Source: Lachnospiraceae bacterium A4 | GTDB taxonomy: Bacteria; Bacillota; Clostridia; Lachnospirales; Lachnospiraceae | Direction of reading: 5' to 3' | Assembly: GCA_000403215.2 (NCBI GenBank) | Contig: KE159562.1 | Location: 1 to 44,501, forward strand | DNA: 44,501 nucleotides | Shown: positions 3,701-37,608 of the stretch, piece by piece | Layout of the letters: each line of letters begins with the position of its first letter | How positions within the stretch are numbered: the stretch's first letter is position 1 | Position numbers and translations under genes: made by a program | Notes under the pieces: generated by a model | Databases searched by the model: none | Seen by the model: only the letters and a program-made list of their open reading frames with translations | What the model was told of the DNA's origin: nothing

Positions 3701-4615
3701 ATGTCATTGGTAGATATTATTCAAATTATTATTGGAATAATGACATTAATAGCAACTATAGCAGTTTCATTTTCAATTTATTGCTTACAGTTGCGTCATG
3801 AAAAAGAAATACAGAAAATTGTTAAGTCGCAAGAACATAAAGAGTTAGAAGAAAAGGCAAAATTGTTTTTGATAGATAATGAGGCAGAACGAGAGTATTT
3901 ACCTTGGTGCGTCATTGCAGCAAACATTCATCGACTTGATAAACATACAAGAGAAATTTATAATTCATTTTGTCGCTCTCCTGAAGAACTGCGAAATGAA
4001 ATATTGAAGCAGGCAGGAATCGGAATGGAGTCAATTATAGGGCAGACATGGCTTAATGATTGCATTGAAGCATTGAAAAAGGATATTCAACAATATAATC
4101 TTGGTAGGGATTATTTATATGAAGGAGCGAAATACTTTCAAAGGAGTTATGAGCGATATCGAAATTTGAAATGGAGTGATACTCCACGAGTTTTTGAACC
4201 GATTAGTAAAAATAATCGCACTAGGATTGCCTTTGGAATAGATAAATTAGACATTGGAAGATACATTGATGAATACTTTTACTATTTTATAGATAAGCGA
4301 ATTGATTTAAAGGAAAGTGAACCGATTCCGCCAATAGATTATGTGTGGAATTCTCAAAATTTAGCAAATGCCAACGAAGAAACAGTTTGTATGTGGATGA
4401 TGGAGCTGATACAGAATATTGCTATTATCATATATAATAGAAGTGGCGTTGAAAAAATAAATGGAGAAATATTAGAATATACGGATGCGCAAGTGGAAAC
4501 TTATGAAGACAAATATTATGCAACGCTACAGGTGCTTTATAACGCTTATTATATAACGCATATGGATGAGAAAAGAGTATCTCGTAAAAAGAAGAAACAA
4601 AAAAACAGGAAGTGA
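3701..4615 (+). CDS. Unknown membrane-anchored protein in RM operon
   Basis: About 304 residues. One N-terminal hydrophobic helix (IIQIIIGIMTLIATIAVSFS, about 5-24) is followed by a charged, coiled-coil-like stretch (about 30-60) and a soluble domain rich in aromatic and charged residues, ending in a Lys-rich tail. This suggests a cytosolic domain tethered to the membrane. I chose ATG 3701 over ATG 3689 because GGAGGG lies just before it; 3689 would overlap that site. Its stop overlaps the region just before hsdR, so it is co-transcribed with the restriction genes. I do not recognise the family. An accessory role in defence is suggested only by its place between hsdS and hsdR. Confidence 0.7.
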   Translation: MSLVDIIQIIIGIMTLIATIAVSFSIYCLQLRHEKEIQKIVKSQEHKELEEKAKLFLIDNEAEREYLPWCVIAANIHRLDKHTREIYNSFCRSPEELRNEILKQAGIGMESIIGQTWLNDCIEALKKDIQQYNLGRDYLYEGAKYFQRSYERYRNLKWSDTPRVFEPISKNNRTRIAFGIDKLDIGRYIDEYFYYFIDKRIDLKESEPIPPIDYVWNSQNLANANEETVCMWMMELIQNIAIIIYNRSGVEKINGEILEYTDAQVETYEDKYYATLQVLYNAYYITHMDEKRVSRKKKKQKNRK

Positions 4616-4620
4616 ATACA

Positions 4621-7600
4621 ATGGCGAATTTCAACGAACACGCATTAGAACTATCTATCATAGAACTTTTACAAAACAAAGGCTACATTCACCAAACAGG
4701 CAGTGAATTATCACGTGAAAAGTCAGAAGTTTTGATAGTAGACGATTTAAAAGATTATTTGCGTACTCGATATGTTTCAGATGAACTGACAGAAAGTGAG
4801 ATTGACAGCATTATCCTCTCCCTACGCACAGTAGGCGGAACTTTGTATGAATCCAACAAAGCAGTTCTGTCCATGATAATAGACGGCTTTGTATTTAATC
4901 GTGAGGATAGGAATAAGAAAGATATATTTATTGAGTTGATAAACTACGAAGAACTCAAAAAGAATATCTTTAAGATTGTAAATCAGTTGGAAATAGAGGG
5001 ATACAATTATCAGATTCGTATTCCCGATGGCATTATTTATGTGAATGGACTTCCGCTTGTGGTATTAGAGTTTAAGACTGCAATACAAGAAAATACAACC
5101 ATAATGGATGCATATACGCAGTTGACAGTCAGATATCAGAGAGATATTCCAGAAATTCTCAAATACAATGCATTCGTGGTTATTAGTGACGGTGCAAACA
5201 GTAAGTATGGTTCTCTATTTACACCATATGAATTTTTTTACGCTTGGAGAAAGGTTCATGATGATGACAAGGAAATGGACGGTATCAATTCTTTGTTCAC
5301 GATGATAGACGGTTTGTTTGCACAGGACAGACTTCTTGCGGTAATAAAGAACTTTATCTATTTTCCTGACGCTTCAGACAAAAATACAAAAGTAGTTTGC
5401 CGATATCCACAGTTTTTTGCAGCCAATAATCTGTATGAAAATGTGAAAGCACATATGAAGTCAAATGGTGATGGTAAGGGCGGTACATATTTTGGAACGA
5501 CAGGATGCGGGAAAAGCTATACAATGCTTTTTCTTACCCGAATGATTATGAAAAGCAGTTATTTTAAAAGTCCAACTATTTTAATTATTACGGATAGAAC
5601 CGATTTAGATGACCAGCTTTCCAAACAATTTGTTGCATCAAAACAGTTTATTGGCGACAATAATGTAATCAGCATAGAGTCAAGGGATAAGCTGCGAGAA
5701 GAATTACAGGGCAAGCCAAGCGGCGGGGTGTATTTGACTACAATACAGAAGTTTACAGAAGATACACAGCTTTTAACAGATAGATATAATGTAATTTGCA
5801 TTTCAGATGAGGCGCACCGTTCGCAGATTAACCTTGATATGAAAGTAAAAGTTACGGATAAAGGCGTAAATAAAACGTTTGGTTTTGCCAAGTATCTGCA
5901 TGATTCCTTACCGAATGCAACCTATATTGGTTTTACAGGGACGCCGATTGATGCTACAATGGAAGTATTTGGAGATATTGTCGGGCATCCATATACCATG
6001 ACAGAGGCAGTGAAGGATGAAATAACGGTAAATCTTGTTTATGATGGACGGGCGGCAAAGGTAACATTGCGAGAGGACAAGCTGCGTGAAATTGAAGAAT
6101 ATTATGATAAGTGTGCCAGTCTTGGAGCATCTGAAGAACAGATTGAGGAAAGCCAAAAGGCAGTAGCGCACTTGGATGCAATTATTGGCGACCCTGAAAG
6201 GTTAAAAGCAGTAGCAAAAGACTTTGTATCACATTATGAGAAAAGGGTAGAAGAAGGTTCGACAGTAGCGGGCAAGGCAATGTTTGTATGTGCAAACAGA
6301 CTGATAGCCTATGCGTTTTATCTGAATTTGATGGAGCTACGTCCTGAATGGAAAGAAAAGAGGAAAGCACCGGAGGGTGTGGAATTAACGGAGAAAGAGG
6401 AAAAGGAATTAAAACCCATAGAGAAAGTGCGCCTTGTCATGACAAGAAATAAAGATGATGAAAAAGAGCTTTATGAAATGCTGGGTACAAAAGAAGACAG
6501 GAAGGAACTGGACAGGCAGTTTAAGAATGTAAAATCCAATTTTAAAATTGCGATTGTGGTTGATATGTGGCTGACGGGATTTGATGTGCCGTGTCTGGAT
6601 ACAATTTATATTGATAAGCCAATTCAGCAGCATACATTGATACAGACAATTTCCAGAGTGAACCGTGTCTATGAGGGCAAGGACAGAGGCTTGATTGTTG
6701 ATTATATCGGCATCAAGAAAAACATGAATGCTGCACTTCGCAAATATACAAATTTTGAGAAAGAGGAACTGGATGATATTAGTCAGGCGGTGACGATTGT
6801 TTTAAATCAACTTGAGGTGTTAGACCAGATGTTTCACAATTTTAGTGCAAAGGATTACTATGTGGGAAGTCCGGTTGAACAGTTAAATTGCCTGAACAGA
6901 GCAGTAGAGTATGTGCAGTTGACACAGGACTTGGAACTCCGGTTCATGGCGGCAGTTAGAAAAATGAAACAGGCATTTAACTTGTGCAATTCCAGTGAAC
7001 AGTTTACCAATGCAGATATTGAAAAAGTGCATTTTTATCAGGCGGTGCGTTCGGTACTGTTTAAACTGACAAAAGGAGAAGCGCCGGATGTTTCCCAGAT
7101 GAATGCCAAAGTTCGTAAATTGCTGGATAGTGCAATACAGTCTGATGGTATTGAGGAACTATTTGAAACGGGGAAACATATAGATGTTGATATTTTCAGC
7201 GATGCGTATATGGCAAGAATTGAAAAGATTCCTATGCCCAATACGAAGATTAAAGCATTGCAGAGATTGCTGTCTTATGCTATTGAGGAGTTTAAGCGGG
7301 TAAATAAAATAAAAAGTATTGAATTTGCTGAGAGAATGAAAGCAGTTGTAGAAACCTATAATAACCGAAGGAAAGATGAAGCATTTGCAAATGAGGTTCT
7401 TGATGATGTGGCAAATCAGCTTGCGGATTTAATACAGGAATTGAAAGCGGAAAGAAATTCGTTTCAAGATATAGGGATTGATTATGAGGAAAAAGCCTTT
7501 TATGATATTCTGCTTGCAGTATCAAAGAAGTATGAATTTGAATATCCAGATGATAAAATGATTGCGTTGTCAAAAGAAATTCGGGCAGTTGTAGATGATA

Positions 7601-7764
7601 AGGCAAAATATACGGATTGGTCTACCAGAGAAGATATCAAAGCAACTTTGCAGGTGGATTTAATTATTCTGCTTGATAAATATGGTTATCCGCCAGTTAC
7701 GATTGATGATGTTTATAAGGAAGTACTGGAACAGGCGGAGAATTTTAAGAAGTATGCGAGATAA
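4621..7764 (+). CDS. hsdR: Type I restriction endonuclease subunit HsdR
   Basis: About 1047 residues, normal for HsdR, the DNA-translocating and cleaving subunit. The PD-(D/E)XK nuclease core reads PDGIIYVNG then LEFKTA (about 130-152). The SF2 translocase follows: Walker A GTTGCGKSY (about 293), DEAH-type box SDEAHRSQ (about 395), motif III GFTGTPI, and motif VI QTISRVNRVYEGKDRG (about 675). A helical C-terminal region binds the HsdM/HsdS core. ATG 4621 has AGGAAG eight bases upstream; a GTG at 4612 is also in frame and would overlap the previous stop. The gene is intact, unlike hsdM. Without a methylase partner it is probably silent, since HsdR needs the M2S core to load on DNA. Confidence 0.95.
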   Translation: MANFNEHALELSIIELLQNKGYIHQTGSELSREKSEVLIVDDLKDYLRTRYVSDELTESEIDSIILSLRTVGGTLYESNKAVLSMIIDGFVFNREDRNKKDIFIELINYEELKKNIFKIVNQLEIEGYNYQIRIPDGIIYVNGLPLVVLEFKTAIQENTTIMDAYTQLTVRYQRDIPEILKYNAFVVISDGANSKYGSLFTPYEFFYAWRKVHDDDKEMDGINSLFTMIDGLFAQDRLLAVIKNFIYFPDASDKNTKVVCRYPQFFAANNLYENVKAHMKSNGDGKGGTYFGTTGCGKSYTMLFLTRMIMKSSYFKSPTILIITDRTDLDDQLSKQFVASKQFIGDNNVISIESRDKLREELQGKPSGGVYLTTIQKFTEDTQLLTDRYNVICISDEAHRSQINLDMKVKVTDKGVNKTFGFAKYLHDSLPNATYIGFTGTPIDATMEVFGDIVGHPYTMTEAVKDEITVNLVYDGRAAKVTLREDKLREIEEYYDKCASLGASEEQIEESQKAVAHLDAIIGDPERLKAVAKDFVSHYEKRVEEGSTVAGKAMFVCANRLIAYAFYLNLMELRPEWKEKRKAPEGVELTEKEEKELKPIEKVRLVMTRNKDDEKELYEMLGTKEDRKELDRQFKNVKSNFKIAIVVDMWLTGFDVPCLDTIYIDKPIQQHTLIQTISRVNRVYEGKDRGLIVDYIGIKKNMNAALRKYTNFEKEELDDISQAVTIVLNQLEVLDQMFHNFSAKDYYVGSPVEQLNCLNRAVEYVQLTQDLELRFMAAVRKMKQAFNLCNSSEQFTNADIEKVHFYQAVRSVLFKLTKGEAPDVSQMNAKVRKLLDSAIQSDGIEELFETGKHIDVDIFSDAYMARIEKIPMPNTKIKALQRLLSYAIEEFKRVNKIKSIEFAERMKAVVETYNNRRKDEAFANEVLDDVANQLADLIQELKAERNSFQDIGIDYEEKAFYDILLAVSKKYEFEYPDDKMIALSKEIRAVVDDKAKYTDWSTREDIKATLQVDLIILLDKYGYPPVTIDDVYKEVLEQAENFKKYAR

Positions 7765-24149: not shown

Positions 24150-25217
24150 ATGAAGGCATGGGTTTTGCATGGCGTGGGTGACATTCGCTTCGAGGAGGTG
24201 GAGACGCCGCAGCCGACGGACGGGGAGGTGCTTGTAGCCGTGAGGGCGGCAGGTATCTGCGGCTCGGATATTCCGCGAATTTACCAGACGGGCGCACATG
24301 TGCAGCCGCTGATTCCGGGGCATGAGTTTGCGGGGCAGGTGGTTCGGACGGGCAGAGATGTCAGTGCGGACTGGCAGAACCGGCGTGTGGGTATTTTTCC
24401 GCTGATTCCGTGCAAAGATTGCGTGTCCTGCCAGAAGCAGCACTATGAGCTGTGCCGCAGTTACAGCTATCTCGGCTCGCGCAGAAACGGCGGTTTTGCA
24501 GAGTATGTGACAGTGCCTGCGTGGAATCTGATTGCACTTCCTGATACGGTCTCCTATGAGCAGGCGGCGATGATGGAGCCTATGGCGGTGGCGGTCCACG
24601 CGATGCGGAGCGCGCTCGCTGGCGATGCCGACAGGTCAAAGGCTATTGCGGTCTGCGGCCTTGGCACCATCGGCATGCTGCTGGTCTTGTTTTTGATCGA
24701 GGCAGGCTATACCAAGATTTATGTGATGGGCAATAAGGCGTCTCAGCGCAGCATGGCAGCGGCAGCCGGCGTGCCGCAGGAAAATATTTTTCAGGACAGG
24801 AATATTCGTGCAAGGGACTGGCTGATGGCGCAGACAAAAGGCGCAGGCGCCGATGTATTCTTTGAGTGTGTCGGCAAAACGGAGACGATTTCCGATGCAT
24901 TTTTGTGTACGGCGCCAAACGGCATGGTACAGCTTGTGGGAAATCCGGCGTCAGATATCGGACTAGACCAGAATACCTACTGGAAAATCCTTCGCAGCCA
25001 GCTGACGGTGAAGGGGAGCTGGAACTCGTCGTTTACCCATAATGCAGAGGACGACTGGCAGTATGTGCTTGACAGATTACAGCACGGGCGTATCCAGCCG
25101 CAGCAGTGTATCACACACCAGTTTGTGCCCAGTGCGCTGGAACAGGGACTGCTGCTCATGCGGGATAAGACGGAGGCGTACATGAAGGTAATGCAGACAG
25201 GTGATTGGGACAAATGA
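24150..25217 (+). CDS. Zinc-dependent sugar-alcohol dehydrogenase, GatD-like
   Basis: 355 residues of the medium-chain dehydrogenase family. Catalytic zinc ligands: Cys in AAGICGSD (about 37) and GHEFAGQV (about 58). Structural zinc ligands: CKDCVSCQKQHYELC (about 88-102). The NAD-binding Rossmann motif reads VCGLGTIGML (about 167-176). The text is closest to galactitol-1-phosphate or related polyol dehydrogenases; the exact substrate is open. AGGAGG stands before the start. Its stop codon overlaps the ATG of jetA (ATGA), an odd coupling of a metabolic gene with a condensin-like set. Confidence 0.85.
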   Translation: MKAWVLHGVGDIRFEEVETPQPTDGEVLVAVRAAGICGSDIPRIYQTGAHVQPLIPGHEFAGQVVRTGRDVSADWQNRRVGIFPLIPCKDCVSCQKQHYELCRSYSYLGSRRNGGFAEYVTVPAWNLIALPDTVSYEQAAMMEPMAVAVHAMRSALAGDADRSKAIAVCGLGTIGMLLVLFLIEAGYTKIYVMGNKASQRSMAAAAGVPQENIFQDRNIRARDWLMAQTKGAGADVFFECVGKTETISDAFLCTAPNGMVQLVGNPASDIGLDQNTYWKILRSQLTVKGSWNSSFTHNAEDDWQYVLDRLQHGRIQPQQCITHQFVPSALEQGLLLMRDKTEAYMKVMQTGDWDK

Positions 25218-26647
25218 TATTAAAAAAGACAATTCCGAAAGATTTTTATAAACTATTCCGGACGCGGAACATGGATGCCTATATGATGTTTTTGGTCTCC
25301 ATCTATGATGAGAACAATGAGGTCTATACGGCGCTTGGACTCACCATAGAGGATGGGCAGGCAATCATCGGCGAGGTGTGCAGCAAAATGCAGATTGAGT
25401 GGATGGAGGACAGCGAGGAGGCGCCCGATTCGGCGCCGGGCACGCCCTCTGCGATTCTGAATACCCTGATTCGCTGGGGATGGATTAAGAGCGATTACGA
25501 CGAACAGTTAAATACATATATTTTATCCTTTCCAGAGTACAGCCAGCTCTATGTAGAACTGTTTAAGAAGCTGCAAAGCGAGGACGACAGCAGGGAGCGC
25601 GAGAGTATTCTTTCTATATATAGTGCGCTGTTTACCTATCAGGCGGAGCATGAAAAAAATAATGGAATATTAAGAAGTGCGCTGGCAACCTCGAAAAATC
25701 TCGAGACGCTGCTCTCCAATATGCAAAATGGAATGCGCACGTATTTTGACGTGCTTTCTGCCAGCAGGAATTTCATACAAATCCAGCAGGTGCTGGTGGA
25801 GGAGATTAACAACAGCGACAGCCAGAGATATGCGATTCTCACGACGACGGACAGTTTTTACCGCTATAAGGAGTCTGTAAAGGAGTTGATCAGTCAGATC
25901 TTGAGCCAGCATGATCTTATGAAAACAGAACTTTCGCGGACATTGCGCCAGAGTACAGCCAATACACCAGAATACACCCGCGCGGAGACTGCGCTGCACT
26001 ACAGCGACGAGGCGGTCGGGCTGATTTACAAGATTGAACGTCAGTTTGACTTAATTGAGCGCAAGTACAACAAACTTGTCGAGCAGAAGGCAGTCTTTGC
26101 CAAGCGCGCCCTCGCAAGAATTCACTATATTTTTCAGGAGGGGGCAGCGGAGGAGGACAGCGTCATTCGGCTGCTTCATTTGATAGAAAAGAGTCCCGAG
26201 TCGGAAAGGATACTTGGGGCGTTGGGCACCAAGATTTGCCTGACAGCGCCGTTTAAGCGCTTTGACGACAACAGTATCTACAAACGCCATGACAGCAGTG
26301 AGACGCCGTTTCAGCCCTTGGCGGTGGAGCGTGCACAGGAGAAAGCGGCACAGATCACGGACTTTGTGCCCAAGCCGCGCTACACGAGAAAGGAGTTAAA
26401 GGCGTTTTGTGACCGGAATATAAAGGACGGCGTGTTTCGCGCGACGGCGGAGACAGTCCAGTCAGTAGAGGATTTGGAAAAACTGCTGTTCTTATGGCAG
26501 GAAGTCACAGGAAAACAGACAAAGCAGGACCTCGTACAGCTTGGAGGCGAAATCCAGAACGAGGAGGGATTTACCTTTTCAGCGCTATGCATGACGATGG
26601 AGGAGGAGTTCGGCGATGAAGTACATAGAGGAGTTGTCGCAGAGTGA
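25214..26647 (+). CDS. jetA: JetA/MksF-like kleisin subunit (Wadjet family)
   Basis: 477 residues, largely helical. The pattern fits the kleisin subunit of the Wadjet/MksBEF condensin-like complexes: an N-terminal winged-helix-like part (KDFYKLFRTRNMDAYMMFL), helical middle with RESILSIYSALFTYQAEHEKNN, and a C-terminal part with RYTRKELKAFCDRN. JetA bridges the heads of the JetC dimer and binds JetB. The ATG at 25214 overlaps the dehydrogenase stop. It overlaps jetB by 32 bases, so the three jet genes form one tightly coupled unit. The name rests on order and general likeness, not on a search. Confidence 0.82.
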   Translation: MILKKTIPKDFYKLFRTRNMDAYMMFLVSIYDENNEVYTALGLTIEDGQAIIGEVCSKMQIEWMEDSEEAPDSAPGTPSAILNTLIRWGWIKSDYDEQLNTYILSFPEYSQLYVELFKKLQSEDDSRERESILSIYSALFTYQAEHEKNNGILRSALATSKNLETLLSNMQNGMRTYFDVLSASRNFIQIQQVLVEEINNSDSQRYAILTTTDSFYRYKESVKELISQILSQHDLMKTELSRTLRQSTANTPEYTRAETALHYSDEAVGLIYKIERQFDLIERKYNKLVEQKAVFAKRALARIHYIFQEGAAEEDSVIRLLHLIEKSPESERILGALGTKICLTAPFKRFDDNSIYKRHDSSETPFQPLAVERAQEKAAQITDFVPKPRYTRKELKAFCDRNIKDGVFRATAETVQSVEDLEKLLFLWQEVTGKQTKQDLVQLGGEIQNEEGFTFSALCMTMEEEFGDEVHRGVVAE

Positions 26648-27227
26648 GGCGGCAGGAATCAAGAAAACGATACAGGATTTGTTTCGCCAGACCTGTATTT
26701 TGCAGGTAAAATGTGACCCTGTGACGCTGGTGCAGCGGGACAATCCCAGATACCGCATCTGTGCAAACCACAGAGAATTTATTGCGGATTATCTGTCGGT
26801 GCTTGACTGTGAACTGGTGCATGACCCGCAGGAACATATCTTCCGCATTAAGGGAGAAAGTATGCCAGTTGACCGGCTGACACTCACCGGGACACGCCTT
26901 CTGCTGATTCTAAAGGTGATTTACCGGGACAGAATTATGGGGGAGGGACTGAACGCGACGGTGACATGCCTTAGGGAAATCCGGGAGACTGGCAGCAATA
27001 CAAACCTGCTCACGCGCAAGCTCACCGCACAGGAATGGCAGGACGCGCTGTCCGTGCTCAAGGTGCACCAGATCATAGAGCTTCCCGGCGCAATTGGAAA
27101 TCTTGAAGATGACACACCGATTTACATCTACAGTACCATCAATATTTTCTGTTCGTCGGTGGAGATCAATGAGCTGATAAAAATGTATGAGGAGTCTACA
27201 GGTGAAGAACGCGAAGAAGATATTTAA
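26616..27227 (+). CDS. jetB: JetB/MksE-like subunit (DUF4194)
   Basis: 203 residues. It has the DUF4194 pattern: a helical start, then LQVKCDPVTLVQRDNPRYRICANHREFI (split), YLSVLDCELVHDP, and LTLTGTRLLLILKVIYRDR. It is a winged-helix (kite) subunit that binds the kleisin JetA. The start has GGAGGAG eight bases upstream. It overlaps jetA at its start and jetC at its end. Confidence 0.85.
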   Translation: MKYIEELSQSEAAGIKKTIQDLFRQTCILQVKCDPVTLVQRDNPRYRICANHREFIADYLSVLDCELVHDPQEHIFRIKGESMPVDRLTLTGTRLLLILKVIYRDRIMGEGLNATVTCLREIRETGSNTNLLTRKLTAQEWQDALSVLKVHQIIELPGAIGNLEDDTPIYIYSTINIFCSSVEINELIKMYEESTGEEREEDI

Positions 27228-30200
27228 GAGAATGTGCCTCAATAACTGGGGCGGAATCACGCACCAAATCCTTGAGTTTCACGAGTATGTCAACCTGTTC
27301 AGCGGCATGAGCGGCTCGGGAAAATCGACAGTGATGGACGCGATACAGGTCATACTGTACGGCAGTGTCTCGTCGAGCTTTCTCAACAAGGCGGCAGACG
27401 ATGCCAAGAATAAGCGGAGTGTGCTAAGTTATCTGAGAGGAGAGCAGAAGGATGGAACGGCAAACCGCGCAGGGAGTGACTTCTGTTCGACGATTGTGCT
27501 GGAGATTGAGGATACAGGAAGCCATATCTCAAACTGTGTAGGGCTGGCGTTTGAAGTGCGCAGGAATGACACCGAACTTCGGAAAATGATTTATTTCAGC
27601 CATTCTGGCAAAATGCCTGCGCAGGGTTATCTGACCAGCGCGGGCTGTCCTTATACCAATCAGGAGATACGCAGGCTGGTGGAGGAGCGCGCTGTAAACA
27701 GTTCATACAGGGAGCGCAGTGACGTGAACCGCATCTATCCGTCCAAGGAGGCGTACACCAATGCACTCTATGACAGCCTGCTTGGCTACATTGACGGAAA
27801 ACGCTTTCATGTGATGGAAAAGAGCGCGATTGCACTCAAGATGACAGACGGGACAGGGCAGTTTATCAAGGACTATATGTTTCCCAAAAATGACGGGGAT
27901 ATCATCAGCAAAATCAGCGAGCAGTTAGGCTCTTACCGCGATATTCAGGAAAAGATTCAGGATATGCGCCGCCGCATCGAGCTGTTGAATGAGGTGCAGG
28001 AAGCCGGAGGGCGCAAGGCGGGAGTCAGCGCAGAACTTTACCGCACAAGGGCAATGGTGCGGTGTGTGGATATGATGGAGCTGCAGGAGAAGCTTGCGGC
28101 AGATGAGGAGGGAAGCCAAAAAGCGGCGGACGAGCTGCTTCGCCTTGAGGAGCGCCAAAAAAAGCTTGATGCCGAACTAGAAGCGCTTGATGCGGCGCTG
28201 ATACAGGTGTCTGCGGACTTGAAGGCAAGTGATTTGGGCGCAAAGGAAATACAACTGGAAGAGCTTGTAAAATTACAGGAAATGTACGCGGCGGACAGCG
28301 AGCAGTGGCGCAAGGTCACGACAGGGCTTAGGCGCTGGGAGGAGGATGAGACCGTCACAGATTATGTGAGCAATCCCATGCTCAACAGAATCTCCGATTT
28401 CTGCAAGGGAAAAATAGACCAGGAACTGTGCGAAGGACTGCGGAAAAATATAAAGGCTGCCAAGGCTGCCATTGATGAGCTGCTAGAGGAGTACAGCAGC
28501 CAGCGGCGCGAGCTTGAGCGGGAGATGAAGGAGATTGGGCATCTGGTCGAGGATATGCAGAATGACAGAAAACCATACCCCGCAGTGCTCAAGGAAGCGA
28601 GGGCGGCACTCGAGCGCAAGCTGACAGACCGTTATGGGCGCACCGTTAAGGTACAAATTCTTGCCGATTTGTTTAATGTGGAGGACGCCGTCTGGAAAAA
28701 TGCTGTCGAGGGCAGAATGGGCAGGCTCAAGCTCTCGCTGGTGACAGAACCCAAGTATGCGCGCGACGCGGCAGCGCTGTTTCGTGAGATGAAAAAGTAT
28801 GAGGAGGTCGAGCTGCTCGACACAGACGCCCTCGTCAAAGCCAACGCTGCCGCCGATGGCAATTCGCTGTATGAGGCAGTCTTTACCGACACGCCATATG
28901 TTGATGCGTGTCTGAGACGGTATCTGGGACACATTCAAAAGTGCGGCACCATCGAGGCGCTAGAGCAGGTACGCGACGGTGTCACGCCCGACTGCTATTC
29001 CTACAGCAATTACAGCTTCCGCCACCTTCGCAGGAATGACTATGAAAAGTATGCCTGTATCGGCACAAGGGTGTCCAAGACAAAACTTGCATCGTATCAG
29101 GAGACGCTTGCAAAGCAGGAGGCGGCGCACAGGGAATTGAAACATACGATTGAGCGGCTAAAGGCGTCCGAGGGATTTGAGAAGCTGGACAATGACATGG
29201 AATACTTTGTGCGTCTGTCAAAGGCTGGAAAAGAGCTTGGGAAGGTCACAGGGAATATCGCGGCGCTCAGGCAGGACATCACACGGCTCAGAGAGGGCGA
29301 GTACAGAGCGCTTCAGGAGGAGAAGGAGAGACTCGAGGCGCGCAGGGACGAGAAGCGGATTGAGCAGAAGCAAAACCAGCGGCTGACCAATGAGTACACT
29401 CGGATAAAGAGCCAGAAGGAGGGAGAGGCGGGCAGGCTTCGAGCCGAGCTTGACGAGAAGCGTGCCGGCTATCATGCGGACGCGCAGATGGAGGAGGAGG
29501 CAGCAAATCAGCTACAGACACGCTCGGCACAGACGGTGCGAAACCGCCTTTTTGCGCAGATCAGTACACTGGAAGAGAAAGAGCAGGCGGAGGCAGAAGT
29601 CCTTCAAAATGCAAGAAACCGCTTTAACAGAGAGTATCCTTCGGTCGGTTTTAACGGTATGGAGAAGGACAATACTTGTTATGAGCGCCTATTGCAGGAT
29701 TATCAGAGCGATTACGAGCCGAAATACGAACAAGAGTTTGAAAAACAGTGTAAGCAGATTTACAAAAGTCTGCGTGAGAATGTGATTGCGACGCTGCACG
29801 GCGATATCAATGCTGCCAAACGCCACACCTGTGACATTAACAGACTTCTCCGCAAGACGAATTTTGCAGACAGCACCTATCAGATTAAGGTTGAGCCTGC
29901 CAAGGACGAGCGGGGACAGTTTTATGAGCTCCTGACAGCGCCGGAGCTTGACAGCAAAAATACAGGCTCACACATGACGGAGGGGCAGCTTAGTCTCGGG
30001 GAGGATGAATTTTACCGGAAATACGAACAGAAGCTCCAGCTTCTGACAGATAAATTCATGCCGGTACGCGAGGAGGACGGCAGAGTGCGCGAACAGCGTC
30101 TGCGGGATATGGAGGCGTATGCCGATTACAGAAATTACCTGTCTTTTAGCATGTATGAGCAGGTGACAGATGAGAACGGGACTGTGATCCGGGAGAATTT

Positions 30201-30555
30201 TGTGGACGAGATGGCAGGGCGGGACTCCGGCGGCGAGGGGCAGAATCCAAAGTATGTGGCGCTGCTTGCAGGCTTTGCCATGCTCTACAATTCACAGAGC
30301 AGCCGCGACTCCAAGATTAAGCTGGTGCTGCTCGACGAGGCATTTTCCAAGATGGACCAGGAGAGGAGCGCCGTCTGTCTGAAATACGCGCGCAAGATGG
30401 ACTTACAACTGATTGTCTGCGTCCCGGACGAGCGCCTTCAGTCCCTGATTCAGAATGTGGATTGTGTCTATGGCTTCAGGAGACACCAGAACCGCATCTC
30501 CATGATGCATATAGACAAGGGGAATTATCTTGAGCTGCTTGAAGGAGACTTCTGA
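27202..30555 (+). CDS. jetC: JetC/MksB-like SMC ATPase
   Basis: About 1117 residues, the usual size. Walker A SGMSGSGKSTVMDAI (about 34-48) follows WGGITHQILEFH. Two long coiled-coil arms flank a hinge in the middle (about 270-440 and 640-800). The ABC signature-like SGGEGQNPKYVALL (about 1008) and Walker B KLVLLDEAFSKMD (about 1040) close the head. Such proteins dimerise, entrap DNA and extrude loops; in Wadjet they sense small circular DNA for cutting by JetD. GTG 27202 has GGAG seven bases upstream and is preferred; ATG 27187 and ATG 27232 are alternatives. No jetD gene follows; a convergent deacetylase gene does. Confidence 0.88.
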   Translation: MKNAKKIFKRMCLNNWGGITHQILEFHEYVNLFSGMSGSGKSTVMDAIQVILYGSVSSSFLNKAADDAKNKRSVLSYLRGEQKDGTANRAGSDFCSTIVLEIEDTGSHISNCVGLAFEVRRNDTELRKMIYFSHSGKMPAQGYLTSAGCPYTNQEIRRLVEERAVNSSYRERSDVNRIYPSKEAYTNALYDSLLGYIDGKRFHVMEKSAIALKMTDGTGQFIKDYMFPKNDGDIISKISEQLGSYRDIQEKIQDMRRRIELLNEVQEAGGRKAGVSAELYRTRAMVRCVDMMELQEKLAADEEGSQKAADELLRLEERQKKLDAELEALDAALIQVSADLKASDLGAKEIQLEELVKLQEMYAADSEQWRKVTTGLRRWEEDETVTDYVSNPMLNRISDFCKGKIDQELCEGLRKNIKAAKAAIDELLEEYSSQRRELEREMKEIGHLVEDMQNDRKPYPAVLKEARAALERKLTDRYGRTVKVQILADLFNVEDAVWKNAVEGRMGRLKLSLVTEPKYARDAAALFREMKKYEEVELLDTDALVKANAAADGNSLYEAVFTDTPYVDACLRRYLGHIQKCGTIEALEQVRDGVTPDCYSYSNYSFRHLRRNDYEKYACIGTRVSKTKLASYQETLAKQEAAHRELKHTIERLKASEGFEKLDNDMEYFVRLSKAGKELGKVTGNIAALRQDITRLREGEYRALQEEKERLEARRDEKRIEQKQNQRLTNEYTRIKSQKEGEAGRLRAELDEKRAGYHADAQMEEEAANQLQTRSAQTVRNRLFAQISTLEEKEQAEAEVLQNARNRFNREYPSVGFNGMEKDNTCYERLLQDYQSDYEPKYEQEFEKQCKQIYKSLRENVIATLHGDINAAKRHTCDINRLLRKTNFADSTYQIKVEPAKDERGQFYELLTAPELDSKNTGSHMTEGQLSLGEDEFYRKYEQKLQLLTDKFMPVREEDGRVREQRLRDMEAYADYRNYLSFSMYEQVTDENGTVIRENFVDEMAGRDSGGEGQNPKYVALLAGFAMLYNSQSSRDSKIKLVLLDEAFSKMDQERSAVCLKYARKMDLQLIVCVPDERLQSLIQNVDCVYGFRRHQNRISMMHIDKGNYLELLEGDF

Positions 30556-32988: not shown

Positions 32989-33682
32989 GGTTCGGATTAC
33001 GGAGGATCCCGCGGAGGCGGCGCATCTTGCCGCCAGCAGGACGCCGTATATTGTCTGGCTAAATGACCGGAATAAGGATGCGTGCTTTCCGAGCGGCGCT
33101 TATTGCGTAGAGCGGCTGAGTGATATTGATGCGCAGTATCTTGACAGGGTTTACCGGCGTTTCCATAATCTTCCATGGGAGATTGCCGAGACGCCCAGAG
33201 TGCGGATTCGGGAGATTACCGTGGAGGATGTGCCGCAGTTGTATGAATTGTACCGCGATGCGAGCGTCACCGCGTTCATGGAACCGCTGTTTGCGGATCC
33301 GGAGCAGGAGATCGCCTACACGAAGGAGTATATAGAAAATGTGTACGGTTTTTACGGATATGGCATGTGGGTGCTTGAGGAGAAAAAGAGCGGACTGGTA
33401 ATTGGAAGAGCTGGGCTGGAAAACCATGAGGGGTTTGAGGGGCTGGAGCTGGGCTTTATGCTGGGCGTGGCATATCAGCACCAAGGCTATGCGTATGAGG
33501 CGTGCAGCGCAATTCTCACATACGGGCTTCAAGAGCTGGGACAGCAGCGGTACTGTTGTTATATTAATCAAAAGAACTATCCATCTATCCGTTTGTGTGA
33601 ACGTCTGGGATTTGAAAAGCAGGGAATCCGAGGCTGTAGTACACTCAATCCTGAATACATTCAATATGTTTTTGAGAAATAA
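32972..33682 (+). CDS. GNAT family N-acetyltransferase
   Basis: About 236 residues. A ~75-residue N-terminal extension (ITEDPAEAAHLAASRTPYIVWLN in two parts) precedes a RimJ/RimL-like GNAT domain: RIREITVEDVPQLYEL, VIGRAGLENHEGFEGLELGF, the acetyl-CoA loop YQHQGYAYEACSA (Q-x-x-G-x-A type, about 164-176) and SIRLCERLGFEKQGI. The substrate is unknown. ATG 32972 is chosen; it lies within the end of the XRE gene, with GAGGGA about ten bases upstream. ATG 32981 is an alternative. Confidence 0.85.
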   Translation: MKKMNEVRITEDPAEAAHLAASRTPYIVWLNDRNKDACFPSGAYCVERLSDIDAQYLDRVYRRFHNLPWEIAETPRVRIREITVEDVPQLYELYRDASVTAFMEPLFADPEQEIAYTKEYIENVYGFYGYGMWVLEEKKSGLVIGRAGLENHEGFEGLELGFMLGVAYQHQGYAYEACSAILTYGLQELGQQRYCCYINQKNYPSIRLCERLGFEKQGIRGCSTLNPEYIQYVFEK

Positions 33683-33762
33683 TACTCATGTAAATAGATC
33701 AAGCAAAAAATCTGAGCATTAATAACTGAGCAAAAATATAGCAAAAATAAAAAAGAAAGAAC

Positions 33763-33791
33763 TTGACATTGGAAAAATGTGGTGGTATGAT
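33763..33791 (+). promoter_or_regulatory. Consensus promoter of amt-PII
   Basis: TTGACA (33763-33768, perfect), 17-base spacer, TATGAT (33786-33791, five of six). The transcript should start near 33798, so that a leader of about 92 bases precedes the amt start. Confidence 0.88.
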
Positions 33792-33802
33792 AAGTCACAT
33801 GA

Positions 33803-33843
33803 AGCAAAGGTGCTGCGGGACAGAATCCCATAGCACCTTTTTT
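33803..33843 (+). terminator. Leader terminator overlapping ANTAR-like hairpins
   Basis: AAAGGTGCT (33806-33814) pairs with AGCACCTTT (33832-33840), followed by T to 33843: an intrinsic terminator that begins about ten bases into the message. It competes with a small hairpin AGC-AAAGGT-GCT (33803-33814). A second, GGG-ACAGAA-TCCC (33817-33829), sits inside the terminator loop. Both hexaloops carry A at position 1 and G at position 4, as in ANTAR antiterminator targets. Confidence 0.75.
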
Positions 33844-33848
33844 CGTCC

Positions 33849-33862
33849 TTTATGCGCATAAA
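33849..33862. promoter_or_regulatory. 14-bp perfect palindrome in amt leader
   Basis: TTTATGCGCATAAA lies between the leader terminator and the ribosome site. Its core TGCGCATA is shared with the direct repeats at 18862-18894. It may bind a protein or fold in RNA; its role is unknown. Confidence 0.4.
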
Positions 33863-33889
33863 GTGTACTTAAAAATAAAGGAGGAGATT

Positions 33890-35689
33890 ATGATGACAGA
33901 ATTACAGGAATTACTCGACGCCGTCAACGGTGAGATCTATGGGGTATGGTTTTTGATTGGCGCTGCATTGGTATTTTGGATGCAGGCAGGCTTTGCGATG
34001 GTGGAGGCAGGCTTTACCAGAGCAAAAAATACAGGAAACATTATCATGAAAAATCTAATGGATTTCTGCATTGGTACATGTACGTTTATTATAATCGGGT
34101 TCGGGCTGCTGCTTGGAGAGGATTTGATGGGATTAATCGGTAAGCCCGGCTTTGATATTTTCACAAGCTATGCGGATTTTGACTGGTCAAACTTTGTGTT
34201 TAACTTGGTGTTTTGTGCGACGACAGCGACGATTGTTTCGGGTGCGATGGCAGAGCGGACAAAGTTTTTATCTTACTGTGTGTACTCCGGGGTGATTTCC
34301 GCACTGATTTATCCGATCGAGGCACACTGGATCTGGGGCGGCGGCTGGCTTGCGCAGTGGGGCTTTCATGATTTTGCTGGCTCCTGTGCGATACATATGG
34401 TGGGCGGAATCAGCGCGCTGATTGGCGCCAAAATCCTCGGACCGCGCATCGGGAAATTTACGGAGGATAAGCAGGGCAGGATTACCAAGGTGAACGCATT
34501 TCCCGGGCATAATCTCACAATTGGCGCACTCGGCGTGTTTATCCTGTGGCTTGGCTGGTATGGGTTTAACGGCGCGGCGGCAACGAGCTTGTCAGAGCTT
34601 GGCTCAGTCTTTGTGACGACAACGATCTCCCCTGCAATTGCGACCGTGGTCTGCATGATTTTCACTTGGGTGAAATACGGCAAGCCTGATGTGTCCATGT
34701 GCCTGAATGCGTCGCTTGCCGGGCTGGTGGCAATTACCGCAGGGTGTGATGTGACAGATGCCCTTGGCGCGATCGTGATTGGCGCGGTTGCCGGTTTGCT
34801 GGTGGTATTTGGCGTCTGGCTTCTGGATTACAAGCTTCATATTGATGACCCCGTGGGCGCAGTGGCGGTGCACTGTCTGAATGGGATTTGGGGGACTGTT
34901 GCAGTCGGCTTCTTTGCGACGGACACAGCGCCTGCCTACGCGAGAGGCTATGGCGACGGTGTGACATTTGGTGCAAATCAGATCTGCGGAACGGGGCTTT
35001 TTTACGGGGGCGGCTTCAAGCTGCTTGGAATCCAGCTTGCGGGAATGGCGTGTGTGATTTTGTGGACAGTAGTGACGATCACAATCACCTTTTTGGCGAT
35101 CAAAGCCATCTTTGGGCTGCGTGTCACAGAGGAGGAGGAAATTGTCGGGCTGGATGCCACAGAGCATGGACTTCCGTCGGCATATGCAGGCTTCTCCATG
35201 ATGGATATTTCAAACAGCATGATTATGGAAGAAAATGAGAATACGCAGCTTGGTTCAGACTGCTATGAGGAGGCGTCTGAGGTGCAGAAAAATGCTGCGG
35301 TCAAGGTTTCACAGCTTCCGACGGCGTCCGCGACAGGGATTTACAAAGTTGTCATCATTGCAAAACTTGCAAGATATGATGTGCTGCGCAAGGCGATGAA
35401 CGCAATCGGCGTGACGGGCATGACCGTGACACAGGTTATGGGGTGCGGCATTCAGAAGGGCGCCGGCGAGAAATACCGCGGTGCAGAGATTGACGCGACC
35501 CTGCTACCAAAGGTGAAAGTCGAGGTAGTGGTGTCCGCAATTCCTGTGGAAAAGGTGATAGCGTCTGCCAAGAAGGCGCTCTATACAGGGCACATCGGTG
35601 ATGGAAAGATTTTTGTATACAATGTGGATAAGGTAGTCAAGATTCGCACAGGGGAGGAGGATTTGGCGGCGCTTGCAGATGTTGAATAA
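33890..35689 (+). CDS. amt: Ammonium channel Amt fused to a P-II regulator domain
   Basis: About 599 residues. Residues 1-425 are an Amt channel of eleven helices, with IEAHWIWGGGWLA, FAGSCAIHMVGG and AVHCLNGIWGT (the twin-His conduction path). A linker (about 425-480) leads to a P-II domain (about 483-599): GIYKVVIIAKL, GVTGMTVTQVMGCGIQKG, YRGAEIDATLLPKVKVEVVV (T-loop end), TGHIGDGKIFVYNVDKVVKIRTGEED. P-II proteins normally plug Amt channels in trans; here it is built in. The Tyr that is uridylylated in E. coli GlnB (Tyr51) is Ile here, so control must be by ligand only. AAGGAGG precedes ATG 33890; ATG 33893 is equally possible. Confidence 0.95.
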   Translation: MMTELQELLDAVNGEIYGVWFLIGAALVFWMQAGFAMVEAGFTRAKNTGNIIMKNLMDFCIGTCTFIIIGFGLLLGEDLMGLIGKPGFDIFTSYADFDWSNFVFNLVFCATTATIVSGAMAERTKFLSYCVYSGVISALIYPIEAHWIWGGGWLAQWGFHDFAGSCAIHMVGGISALIGAKILGPRIGKFTEDKQGRITKVNAFPGHNLTIGALGVFILWLGWYGFNGAAATSLSELGSVFVTTTISPAIATVVCMIFTWVKYGKPDVSMCLNASLAGLVAITAGCDVTDALGAIVIGAVAGLLVVFGVWLLDYKLHIDDPVGAVAVHCLNGIWGTVAVGFFATDTAPAYARGYGDGVTFGANQICGTGLFYGGGFKLLGIQLAGMACVILWTVVTITITFLAIKAIFGLRVTEEEEIVGLDATEHGLPSAYAGFSMMDISNSMIMEENENTQLGSDCYEEASEVQKNAAVKVSQLPTASATGIYKVVIIAKLARYDVLRKAMNAIGVTGMTVTQVMGCGIQKGAGEKYRGAEIDATLLPKVKVEVVVSAIPVEKVIASAKKALYTGHIGDGKIFVYNVDKVVKIRTGEEDLAALADVE

Positions 35690-35736: not shown

Positions 35737-36888
35737 TTAGATGATTGACTCAATGGATAAATTTTTCATGGTGGACAATTTCAGAATGCTTTGATAATAG
35801 TTCTCCTGCAAGTCGATAATCTCATTGTTCTCAGTACGGATTACGGGTTTGGAGAAATTATTTGGATTGATAAAAATAACATTTCCCTCCATGCCGTTGC
35901 TGAGGGTAACATGGTGGTTGAGATAAGAATTTGCCACGTTCTCGAGGAAGGTAAGAATATATTTTATTTCATATTTATGGATACCGTCATCTTCAAAATA
36001 TTTAATGACAGAGAAGGGACACATTGCCGAACGGTACACGCGCTCGCTTGTCATGGCGTCAAAGATATCCGCGATGGTGACAATCTTGGAAAATTTATCA
36101 ATCTCGCTGCCCGACAGCCCGTAGGGATAGCCGCTGCCGTCACATTTCTCATGGTGCATCAGCGCAGTATTCTTGACAGGGTCCGGGATACTGCTGTAGC
36201 GCCCGAGCAGATGAAACCCTTCTGTCGTGTGGGTCTTGACAATCTCAAACTCGTCCGGGGTCAGCTTGCCGGGTTTTCGCAGGATACCCGCAGGCAGCAT
36301 AAACTTGCCCACATCATGAAATAACCCGCAGGCAGTCGCCATCATCTGATCTGCCTCTGAGAAGTGAAGCCAGCGCGCGAGCACATTGGAGATGAGTGCC
36401 ACATCAATGCAGTGGTTATAGACGGAATCCTCCATGCTGCGCACACTCAAAAGCATGTCAAAGACGCTGATGCTCTGCCGGTTCTGTGAAAGCAGCGCCA
36501 GCGTTTCTTTTAACAATTCATTTGCGCGGAACGGTTCATTGCGGTATAGTGAATTCATGAGATTGTTCTGGTAATGCTCTGCGCACCGTGCAAACTGATG
36601 GGAAAAAATGTTTTCTTCCGTGTTGGAATGTACCTCGGCATTGCTGTATAAATTTGTGATGGACGCGTCTTGGTGCTGGTCAACTGCCGCGCTGGTCATC
36701 GGCATGGACATGTCAACGACAAGATTGTCCTCAATATGTGCATAATAGATGGAATATCCTTCTAATCGTGCTATAATATTCTCAGTGAGGATGATGCCTT
36801 TGGGAACAACGGTTTTGTGGTCATAAGACAAGATGGCTTCGGCAGTTACCATACCCGGTGTAAGCGCTGTGATGGGAATTTTTCGCAT
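35737..36888 (-). CDS. HD-GYP domain protein (cyclic-di-GMP phosphodiesterase type)
   Basis: 383 residues. An N-terminal domain (PITALTPGMVTAEAILSYD, VPKGIILTENIIARL) precedes an HD-GYP domain (about 165-330). The metal-binding signature reads HCIDVALIS, GLFHDVGKFMLP, then KTHTTEGFHLL, HHEKCDGSGYP (GYP motif) and IADIFDAMTSERVYR. The family cleaves cyclic-di-GMP or related dinucleotides. The C-terminal tail (about 340-383) is a small extra domain. The start is ATG 36888 with GAGGAA seven bases upstream; a longer frame to 37014 covers the promoter and is rejected. It is transcribed from a strong promoter at 36972-36944. Confidence 0.9.
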   Translation of the reverse strand: MRKIPITALTPGMVTAEAILSYDHKTVVPKGIILTENIIARLEGYSIYYAHIEDNLVVDMSMPMTSAAVDQHQDASITNLYSNAEVHSNTEENIFSHQFARCAEHYQNNLMNSLYRNEPFRANELLKETLALLSQNRQSISVFDMLLSVRSMEDSVYNHCIDVALISNVLARWLHFSEADQMMATACGLFHDVGKFMLPAGILRKPGKLTPDEFEIVKTHTTEGFHLLGRYSSIPDPVKNTALMHHEKCDGSGYPYGLSGSEIDKFSKIVTIADIFDAMTSERVYRSAMCPFSVIKYFEDDGIHKYEIKYILTFLENVANSYLNHHVTLSNGMEGNVIFINPNNFSKPVIRTENNEIIDLQENYYQSILKLSTMKNLSIESII

Positions 36889-36943
36889 AAGCCCATTCCT
36901 CTCTTTTTCTAGTAAGTTATAATAGGGTAAAAAGTATACTCTC

Positions 36944-36972
36944 ATTGTAGCGGTTTTAACCTTAAATGTCAA
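36944..36972 (-). promoter_or_regulatory. Consensus promoter of the HD-GYP gene
   Basis: On the minus strand TTGACA (36972 to 36967, perfect), 17-base spacer, TACAAT (36949 to 36944). It lies 56-84 bases upstream of the start, partly under the ribosome-site region of the divergent NUDIX gene. Confidence 0.8.
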
Positions 36973-36990
36973 ACAAAAGGAGGTAATTCT

Positions 36991-37608
36991 ATGAAAAAAT
37001 ACACAAATATTCACAAATTGTCTGACAACAGATTTCTAAATCTGTTTCATCTGGACGCGCTGACGGACAGCGGGCGCCCGTTTGATTATTACTTTGTATC
37101 CAGAAGAAAGGCAGACAAAATCAAGCTGCTGACCAAGGACAGCGCAGCGGAGGGCGTTGTTATTTTTCCAGTGTGGAGGGAGGACCCGGAGAAGATCGTG
37201 CTGCTCCGGCAGTATAGATATCCTTTAGATGATGTGCTGTATGAGCTTCCTGCCGGCTTAATCGACGCGGGGGAGACGCCGGAGTGCGCCGCCATACGGG
37301 AGATGAAGGAGGAGACAGGGCTTTCATTTGAAGTGTATACAGGAGGAGATGCAGCGTACCGCAGGCCATTTTTTATGGGGGCTGGCTTTACGGACGAGAG
37401 CTGCAATGCAATCTTTGGCTATGCCAGCGGTGCCATCAGCCGCAGGGAGCAGGAGGACACCGAATCTATTCAGGTGCTGGTTGCCGGCAAGGACGAGGTG
37501 CGCCGCATTCTCCGTGAGGAGAAGGTTTCCATCAGGGCGGCATATCTGCTCATGAGCTTTTTAAATGCCTCCGAAGAGGCGCCGTTTGGTTTTCTGGATT
37601 CATTTTGA
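36991..37608 (+). CDS. NUDIX hydrolase, ADP-ribose pyrophosphatase-like
   Basis: 205 residues. The Nudix box GLIDAGETPECAAIREMKEE then TGL (about 89-111) fits G-x5-E-x7-R-E-U-x-E-E-x-G-U. Upstream, VVIFPVWREDPEKIVLLRQYRYPL matches the ADP-ribose pyrophosphatase group (split between about 55 and 77). Such enzymes hydrolyse ADP-ribose or other nucleoside diphosphate derivatives. The N-terminus is longer than in minimal members. AGGAGG precedes ATG 36991. It diverges from the HD-GYP gene. Confidence 0.88.
   Translation: MKKYTNIHKLSDNRFLNLFHLDALTDSGRPFDYYFVSRRKADKIKLLTKDSAAEGVVIFPVWREDPEKIVLLRQYRYPLDDVLYELPAGLIDAGETPECAAIREMKEETGLSFEVYTGGDAAYRRPFFMGAGFTDESCNAIFGYASGAISRREQEDTESIQVLVAGKDEVRRILREEKVSIRAAYLLMSFLNASEEAPFGFLDSF

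Follow-up and report, generated by a model that had tools for sequence, protein, structure and literature searches.

A putative single-hexaloop ANTAR-type attenuator at the start of the amt-PII transcript in a Lachnospiraceae genome

The window, by which we mean the whole 44,501-nt stretch of DNA analyzed here, carries a gene for a fusion protein made of an ammonium transporter (Amt, residues 19-428) and a P-II domain (residues 486-589). The closest named Amt record belongs to a Lachnospiraceae MAG and shares 91% Amt identity. The gene is preceded by a leader whose features are collected in Table 1, and the upstream neighbor of this leader, a GNAT acetyltransferase gene, ends at 33682. An inverted repeat, CTTTATG-CG-CATAAAG (33848-33863), lies between the terminator and the ribosome-binding site. 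Downstream, an HD-domain gene (HD_5; 35737-37014, minus strand) is placed tail to tail with amt-PII.

Table 1. Elements of the amt-PII leader and the gene behind it, in window coordinates.
Feature	Position	Strand	Remarks
Promoter, sigma-70 type, TTGACA-17 nt-TATGAT	33763..33791	+	11/12 consensus matches; spacing to the hexaloop recurs in relatives
Transcription start (inferred from promoter position), ~7 nt past the -10 box	33798..33799	+	
ANTAR-type hexaloop hairpin AGC-AAAGGT-GCT (hairpin 1)	33803..33814	+	loop 33806-33811, with A1 and G4; C-G closing pair
Intrinsic terminator	33806..33843	+	5' arm AAAGGTGCT 33806-33814; 3' arm AGCACCTTT 33832-33840; T run 33838-33843
Inner hairpin GGGA-CAGAA-TCCC, terminator apex	33817..33829	+	second hairpin of the original prediction; part of the terminator; loop not conserved
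Ribosome-binding site GGAGGAG	33880..33886	+	assigned from sequence
amt-PII fusion gene	33890..35689	+	ATG start at 33890 or 33893

An earlier reading of this DNA (the original prediction) had described a promoter followed closely by an intrinsic terminator and by a hairpin that excludes it, and each of these three elements was borne out. The promoter recurs in relatives in both position and sequence, although shuffled sequences yield 1.2 comparable sites per 400 bases, so that the promoter match alone is weak. The terminator stem and its T run lie within a segment (33796-33850) that folds at -25.2 kcal/mol, with a z-score of -6.3 and none of 200 shuffles equally stable. A simple terminator scan listed nothing at the leader, probably because of the internal mismatch in the stem. 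Mutual exclusion follows from predicted pairing, since the loop and the 3' arm (33812-33814) of hairpin 1 together make up the 5' arm of the terminator, and paired changes are seen in both the hexaloop stem and the terminator. In a 36-nt nascent RNA lacking the terminator 3' arm, hairpin 1 is predicted by RNAfold to form. Its three-pair stem is weak, and because loop position 6 is U in the window, A1 is able to pair with it; RNAfold draws this A1-U6 pair, giving AGCA/UGCU with an AAGG tetraloop. From these sequence features and their recurrence, we judge hairpin 1 and the terminator to be beyond chance. No Rfam family reached its gathering score anywhere in the window, the top score for 33700-33920 being 28 bits against a gathering score of 55, and a known RNA family was on this ground rejected as the identity of the leader. 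No tRNA genes were found in the window.

The leader core was recovered with no more than one mismatch from all 28 amt leaders of the genus, a set of 28 genomes with amt at E below 1e-70 in which the genome under study is included. Across the wider set of amt loci, from which divergent amt copies without a locus fell outside, a hexaloop with A1 and G4 overlaps a terminator before amt at 81 of 109 loci, compared with 0-13 loci for any other pair of letters at these positions (109 of 110 loci were used for this control, L003 being dropped as a duplicate of L088). The A1/G4 unit was absent at the remaining 28 loci. Two loci of the same genus, L087 and L096, contain the core without passing the rule for a unit. 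Among these terminator-linked finds, the loop is closed by a C-G pair in 87 of 97 A1/G4 units versus 15 of 96 other units, and the second loop base of the 97 A1/G4 units is mostly A (91 units) and the fifth mostly G (85 units). The original prediction had named loss of the loops in relatives as one of two observations that would count against it, the other being the lack of an ANTAR protein, and these checks went largely its way. Hexaloop 1 and its G4 are kept, but A1 gives way to G in 7 of the 73 amt units aligned and, within the genus, in 7 of 15 glnN leaders of the GAAC type. When hexaloops were counted without reference to a terminator (stem at least 4), A1/G4 outnumbered every other class in leaders, with 73 of 287 hairpins, against 9.7 of 133.5 in shuffles. 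It also led in the amt coding control (50 of 138), though not far upstream (10 of 139), and because of this high coding control the terminator-linked count is the one we build on. A search for the amt-type core pattern in the genome under study, allowing one mismatch at most, was little informative, with 49 matches against 34 in the reversed control (30 of the 49 were viewed, and the plus-strand ones alone were judged by eye).

Compensatory changes, which the original prediction had proposed as a check, were found in the hexaloop stem. Across the 73 units of the alignment (out of 90 unit sequences, the 17 omitted being mostly long or second units), the stem has 55 double-change cells compared with 15.2 in shuffles and at most 27 in slid controls, an excess to be read with the caveat that kinship alone can lift related sequences above shuffles without any structure. 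Because the three inner pairs had been part of unit selection, the two outer pairs were also counted apart; they alone have 18 double-change cells versus 7.1 shuffled and at most 11 slid. The number of pairs showing any double change was not above shuffles, 462 and 477 of 500 being as high. For the terminator, 187 double-change cells were counted versus 57.0 in shuffles.

To place the hairpin relative to transcription, we considered 110 first units, namely 27 of 29 loci from the class at large and those amt leaders that passed the filter on loop and closing pair (L003 and L088 both included). A promoter with at least 9/12 matches lies within 80 nt upstream of 92 of them, and the -10 box ends no more than 30 nt from the loop in 91 leaders versus 8.5 in shuffles. 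The distance from the -10 box to the loop is usually about 14 nt and, where a promoter was matched, falls between 13 and 17 nt in 74 of 92 leaders. This nearly fixed distance makes the hairpin the first transcribed element in most leaders.

A covariance model built from amt leaders (R1) recognizes the window leader at E 1e-11, the window being a member of its training set. The search for further sites suggested by the original prediction led to two more operons of the same genome with the element, purF-carAB and glnN. R1 gave two strong matches in this genome, the window leader and a leader before purF, carA and carB; at E≤10 the total rose to nine, with a match on the opposite strand of the window leader and six weaker ones added. 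The element before glnN, which encodes a type III glutamine synthetase, was missed by R1 and found by eye (GAAC-AAAGGT-GTTC, G000:C40:54869-54856). The stems of the amt-PII, purF-carAB and glnN leaders differ, and the loop class is common to all three. Upstream of glnN more widely, 22 of 31 loci have a C-G-closed hexaloop whose first base is A or G, a count in which flanks are cut at eight of the 31 and some matches are possibly due to chance. The purF-carAB leader (L210, 13715-13763 on the minus strand of G000:C23) has an apparent second terminator behind the first, and a possible second hexaloop in it, AAC-AAGGGC-GTC, has a stem of two pairs only.

R1 matches in other Clostridia lead into glnN-amt, asnA-glnN, asnB and gltB, and 24 of 29 class loci stand before nitrogen-assimilation or glutamine-using genes; at one of the class leaders (L223), amt does not start until 706 nt downstream. 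The five loci where no such gene was seen are L230 and L247, which are cut, L248, which resembles a plain terminator, L233, which precedes an ABC transporter, and L245. At L233 (G110:C5:49380-49506), two successive units of the AAAGC-AAAGGC-GCTTT type precede two genes named by eye, the first for an ABC-type ATPase and the second for a likely binding protein; perhaps these genes encode an importer of a nitrogen compound. At another locus, L260 (G156:C15), asnB, glnN and gltB are preceded by R1 leaders, three in all, that share a strand and lie within 8 kb. In 12 stretches chosen for closeness of leader and ANTAR gene, the leader faces divergent glutamate-synthase-type genes together with glnA and the ANTAR gene in eight, faces glnA-ANTAR alone in three, and has everything on one strand in one.

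The original prediction called for an ANTAR protein encoded elsewhere in the genome, and a single one is present (E 3.8e-15, above the Pfam cut-off). It has 181 residues, and its gene lies directly behind glnA. The same arrangement, with glnA directly upstream, was seen at 26 of 30 ANTAR loci (30 of 45 matches covered); as for the other four, L159 is truncated at a contig end, and L143, L144 and L146 resemble response regulators of the normal type. Relatives in the PDB identified by sequence include Rv1626, AmiR, EutV and NasR. The predicted model (mean pLDDT 89) keeps the receiver fold; its top Foldseek match is RNA-bound EutV (6ww6; TM 0.75 by query), and its VIA-align list is filled by receiver domains, with EutV among the rows. 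Where the original prediction expected an ANTAR response regulator, the protein is not a normal one. The acceptor Asp is gone in all 22 genus proteins aligned, and the acidic pair of the receiver is replaced in all 21 that include that part (L159 is cut), as read by eye from the alignment. With the phospho-acceptor site lost, the signal is probably not phosphorylation. By our own reading of equivalent positions against the RNA contacts given for EutV in the accessible text of PMC8934654, Lys149, Glu160 and Met172 are kept, Tyr164 is replaced by His as in AmiR, and the aligned positions do not preserve Arg142, Lys143, Lys147, Arg168, Asn173, Arg175 or Arg177. The RNA contacts of this protein may thus differ from those of EutV.

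Leaders and ANTAR genes co-occur across the class. Among 292 class genomes that are at least 90% complete (the genome under study excluded), at E≤1e-6 there were 51 with both, 6 with a leader only, 104 with an ANTAR gene only and 131 with neither (Fisher 1e-10), an association that, like the proximity of the two, is inflated by shared ancestry, and the class genomes may overlap the amt leaders used to train R1. At the stricter cut-off of E≤1e-8, 19 genomes had both and none a leader only; the leader-only class rises to 13 at E≤1e-5 and to 21 (against 93 with both) at E≤1e-4. Leader and ANTAR gene lie within 10 kb of each other in 23 of the 44 genomes that, out of the 51, have a listed ANTAR place, where about 0.4 would be expected by a rough estimate. 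Leader-only cases are of several kinds. Behind the matches in G102, G223 and G244, no gene fits the nitrogen reference set; in G092 and G241, the contigs appear from their lengths to stop short of the position that the ANTAR gene takes in sister genomes; and in G273 the leader stands about 950 bp before glnN. The R1 match in G051 likewise has no nitrogen gene behind it. G021 (96% complete) has leaders before amt and glnN, with an ANTAR match absent by both profile and tblastn, and G014 (78% complete) has an ANTAR match only below the cut-off. R1 also picks up plain terminators, and weak matches are unspecific, as some match was obtained in 52 of 60 relatives at E≤0.1. The best R1 matches of the ANTAR-negative genomes G011 and G023 were 1.2e-4 and 7.9e-5.

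In its original form, the prediction was of a canonical leader with two hexaloops, hairpins 1 and 2 acting jointly as the recognition element. In the window, a six-base drawing with A1 and G4 is indeed possible for both loops, the 2-nt linker is inside the range accepted for actinobacteria according to the available text of PMC8164766, and some inner A1/G4 hexaloop can be drawn in 7 of 27 genus-level units (L110, from another genus, included). Nevertheless, the six-base register proposed for the second hairpin, GGG-ACAGAA-TCCC, has a G-U closing pair, and the predicted fold has a loop of five bases. Across 92 units, moreover, an inner A1/G4 loop (13 of 92) is no commoner than A1/A4 (13 of 92) and is C-G closed in just 2. 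Apical loops of relatives diverge in length and letters (GAAA, TAAAC, TACAC and others). The inner hairpin is also compatible with the terminator, so a protein gripping it would leave termination intact. Nor is a partner found on the other side: of the 110 first units, one has another A1/G4 hexaloop closed by C-G within 25 nt upstream, and dropping the closing-pair rule brings this to 8 of 110, below several other letter pairs. Some leaders, for example L005, L013, L045 and L077, do have two hexaloop-terminator units in series. Recognition through both hairpins is in our estimation quite improbable, and we take the second-hairpin half of the observation, on the sequences compared here, to be due to chance. 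The leader lacks the tandem second hexaloop of the two-hairpin ANTAR motif (Ramesh et al. 2012) and looks, by its sequence, like a variant of ANTAR antitermination with one hexaloop placed at the transcript start.

The conserved hairpin might instead be read by something other than an ANTAR protein, either another RNA-binding protein or a small ligand. G021, with its leaders and undetected ANTAR gene, would fit such a recognizer, as would the several EutV contact residues that are not kept. We nonetheless regard it as unlikely, because NasR selects the same bases at loop positions 1 and 4 and the same C-G closing pair (per the accessible part of PMC7496416), leaders co-occur with and lie near ANTAR genes, and the Rfam families stayed below their gathering scores. 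An operator or promoter part acting as DNA, with the terminator a passive bystander, would account for the near-constant distance between loop and -10 box; yet the stem letters change pairwise across relatives and vary between this genome's own three leaders, and the glnN element is, as judged by eye, far from its likely promoter, which leaves a DNA site very improbable. Leader-peptide attenuation was rejected and has next to no probability in our view: an ATG at 33799 opens a short frame across the hairpin, but it is kept in only 9 of 28 same-genus leaders (by eye), and there is no room for a ribosome-binding site between the inferred transcription start and this ATG.

We consider it likely, on sequence and comparative grounds, that the leader is a short transcription attenuator through which the GlnA-linked ANTAR protein, using one hexaloop, turns on amt-PII. 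RNA polymerase would start some 5 nt upstream of the hexaloop hairpin. When free, the GlnA-linked ANTAR protein would hold the nascent hexaloop and trap the 5' arm of the terminator, allowing read-through into amt-PII; when the protein is unavailable, presumably in nitrogen excess, the RNA would refold into the terminator and transcription would stop near +45. A single hexaloop would suffice, and the same protein should also control glnN and purF-carAB in this genome. Given the dead receiver, the signal that sets the activity of the ANTAR protein is probably a ligand or a protein contact, with glutamine synthetase and P-II as candidates, rather than phosphorylation. Sequence and comparison provide the anatomy, the paired stem changes, the co-occurrence, the gene neighborhood and the loss of the phospho-site, and from these we infer binding, read-through, the direction of control and the signal. 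The loss of several contact residues and the leaders in which A1 has become G slightly lower our confidence in the attenuator. The broader proposal has in our view an even chance of being right, namely that throughout Clostridia, glutamine-synthetase-linked dead-receiver ANTAR proteins control amt, glnN, asnA, asnB, gltB and purF-carAB via single terminator-overlapping hexaloops, often at the transcript start, with one hairpin being enough and the signal being contact with glutamine synthetase or P-II instead of a kinase.

Control of amt by ANTAR proteins is of an already known kind. For the papers cited here, we refer to what their available text states. Ramesh et al. 2012 (PMC3369931) defined the ANTAR RNA motif as two hairpins, reported ANTAR sites before ammonium transporter, P-II, and glutamine and glutamate synthase genes elsewhere, with Desulfotomaculum as an example, and found that a single stem-loop was bound worse or not at all by an EutV ANTARcc fragment. 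NasR SELEX (PMC7496416) likewise yielded a pair of hairpins whose A1/G4 loops are closed by C:G. The 2022 EutV-RNA structure (PMC8934654), on the other hand, redefined the minimal ANTAR target as one hexaloop in which G4 is contacted and A1 is not, reported binding to isolated hexaloops, and noted that single-hexaloop sites may exist. The present leader resembles the EutV/eut, NasR/nasF and AmiR/amiE RNAs, as described in these sources, in its A1/G4 hexaloop, C-G closing pair, mutually exclusive terminator and ANTAR protein. It differs from those two-hexaloop RNAs in having one hexaloop at the transcript start, and in that the loop as well as the 3' arm belongs to the terminator. The leader is accordingly filed as a variant outside the two-hairpin motif, and search models requiring two hairpins would be expected to miss it. 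It matches the minimal target of PMC8934654 in having one hexaloop, and many natural candidates in Clostridia are given here with their genes, unlike in the available text of that paper. Similarly, the GS-GOGAT ANTAR of C. thermocellum (Clo1313_2030) has been suggested as an antiterminator, with NitR of C. acetobutylicum likewise linked to GS-GOGAT (PMC4676874). Our protein shares with these the ANTAR gene beside glutamine synthetase, and here, in contrast to what that text presents, likely RNA targets are shown. From phosphorylated REC-ANTAR regulators of the EutV type it differs in its replaced acceptor Asp and acidic pair. The GlnR repressor of Gram-positive bacteria, which is controlled by feedback-inhibited glutamine synthetase (PMC9249791), may serve as an analogy, and as an analogy only, for the signal to the ANTAR protein.

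Among the titles and abstract openings searched, with subscription journals thinly covered, we found nothing on single start-proximal hexaloop leaders before clostridial amt or glnN. About 100 natural leaders seemingly have one hexaloop, the shortest running about 45 nt from inferred start to terminator. With so many short natural examples, the question of one or two hexaloops left by the 2022 EutV-RNA structure becomes directly testable. For ammonium assimilation in Clostridia, Lachnospiraceae among them, the set also offers a likely RNA regulon with its regulator, and its sequences may point to nitrogen sensing via a pseudo-receiver protein tied to glutamine synthetase.

Elsewhere in the window, jetA, jetB and jetC of a Wadjet type I system occupy 25205-30555 (PADLOC E 4.1e-216, 2.4e-109 and 0); no jetD was seen directly behind jetC, where the next gene is on the other strand. 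A type I restriction enzyme subunit (PADLOC REase_I) is encoded at 4612-7764.
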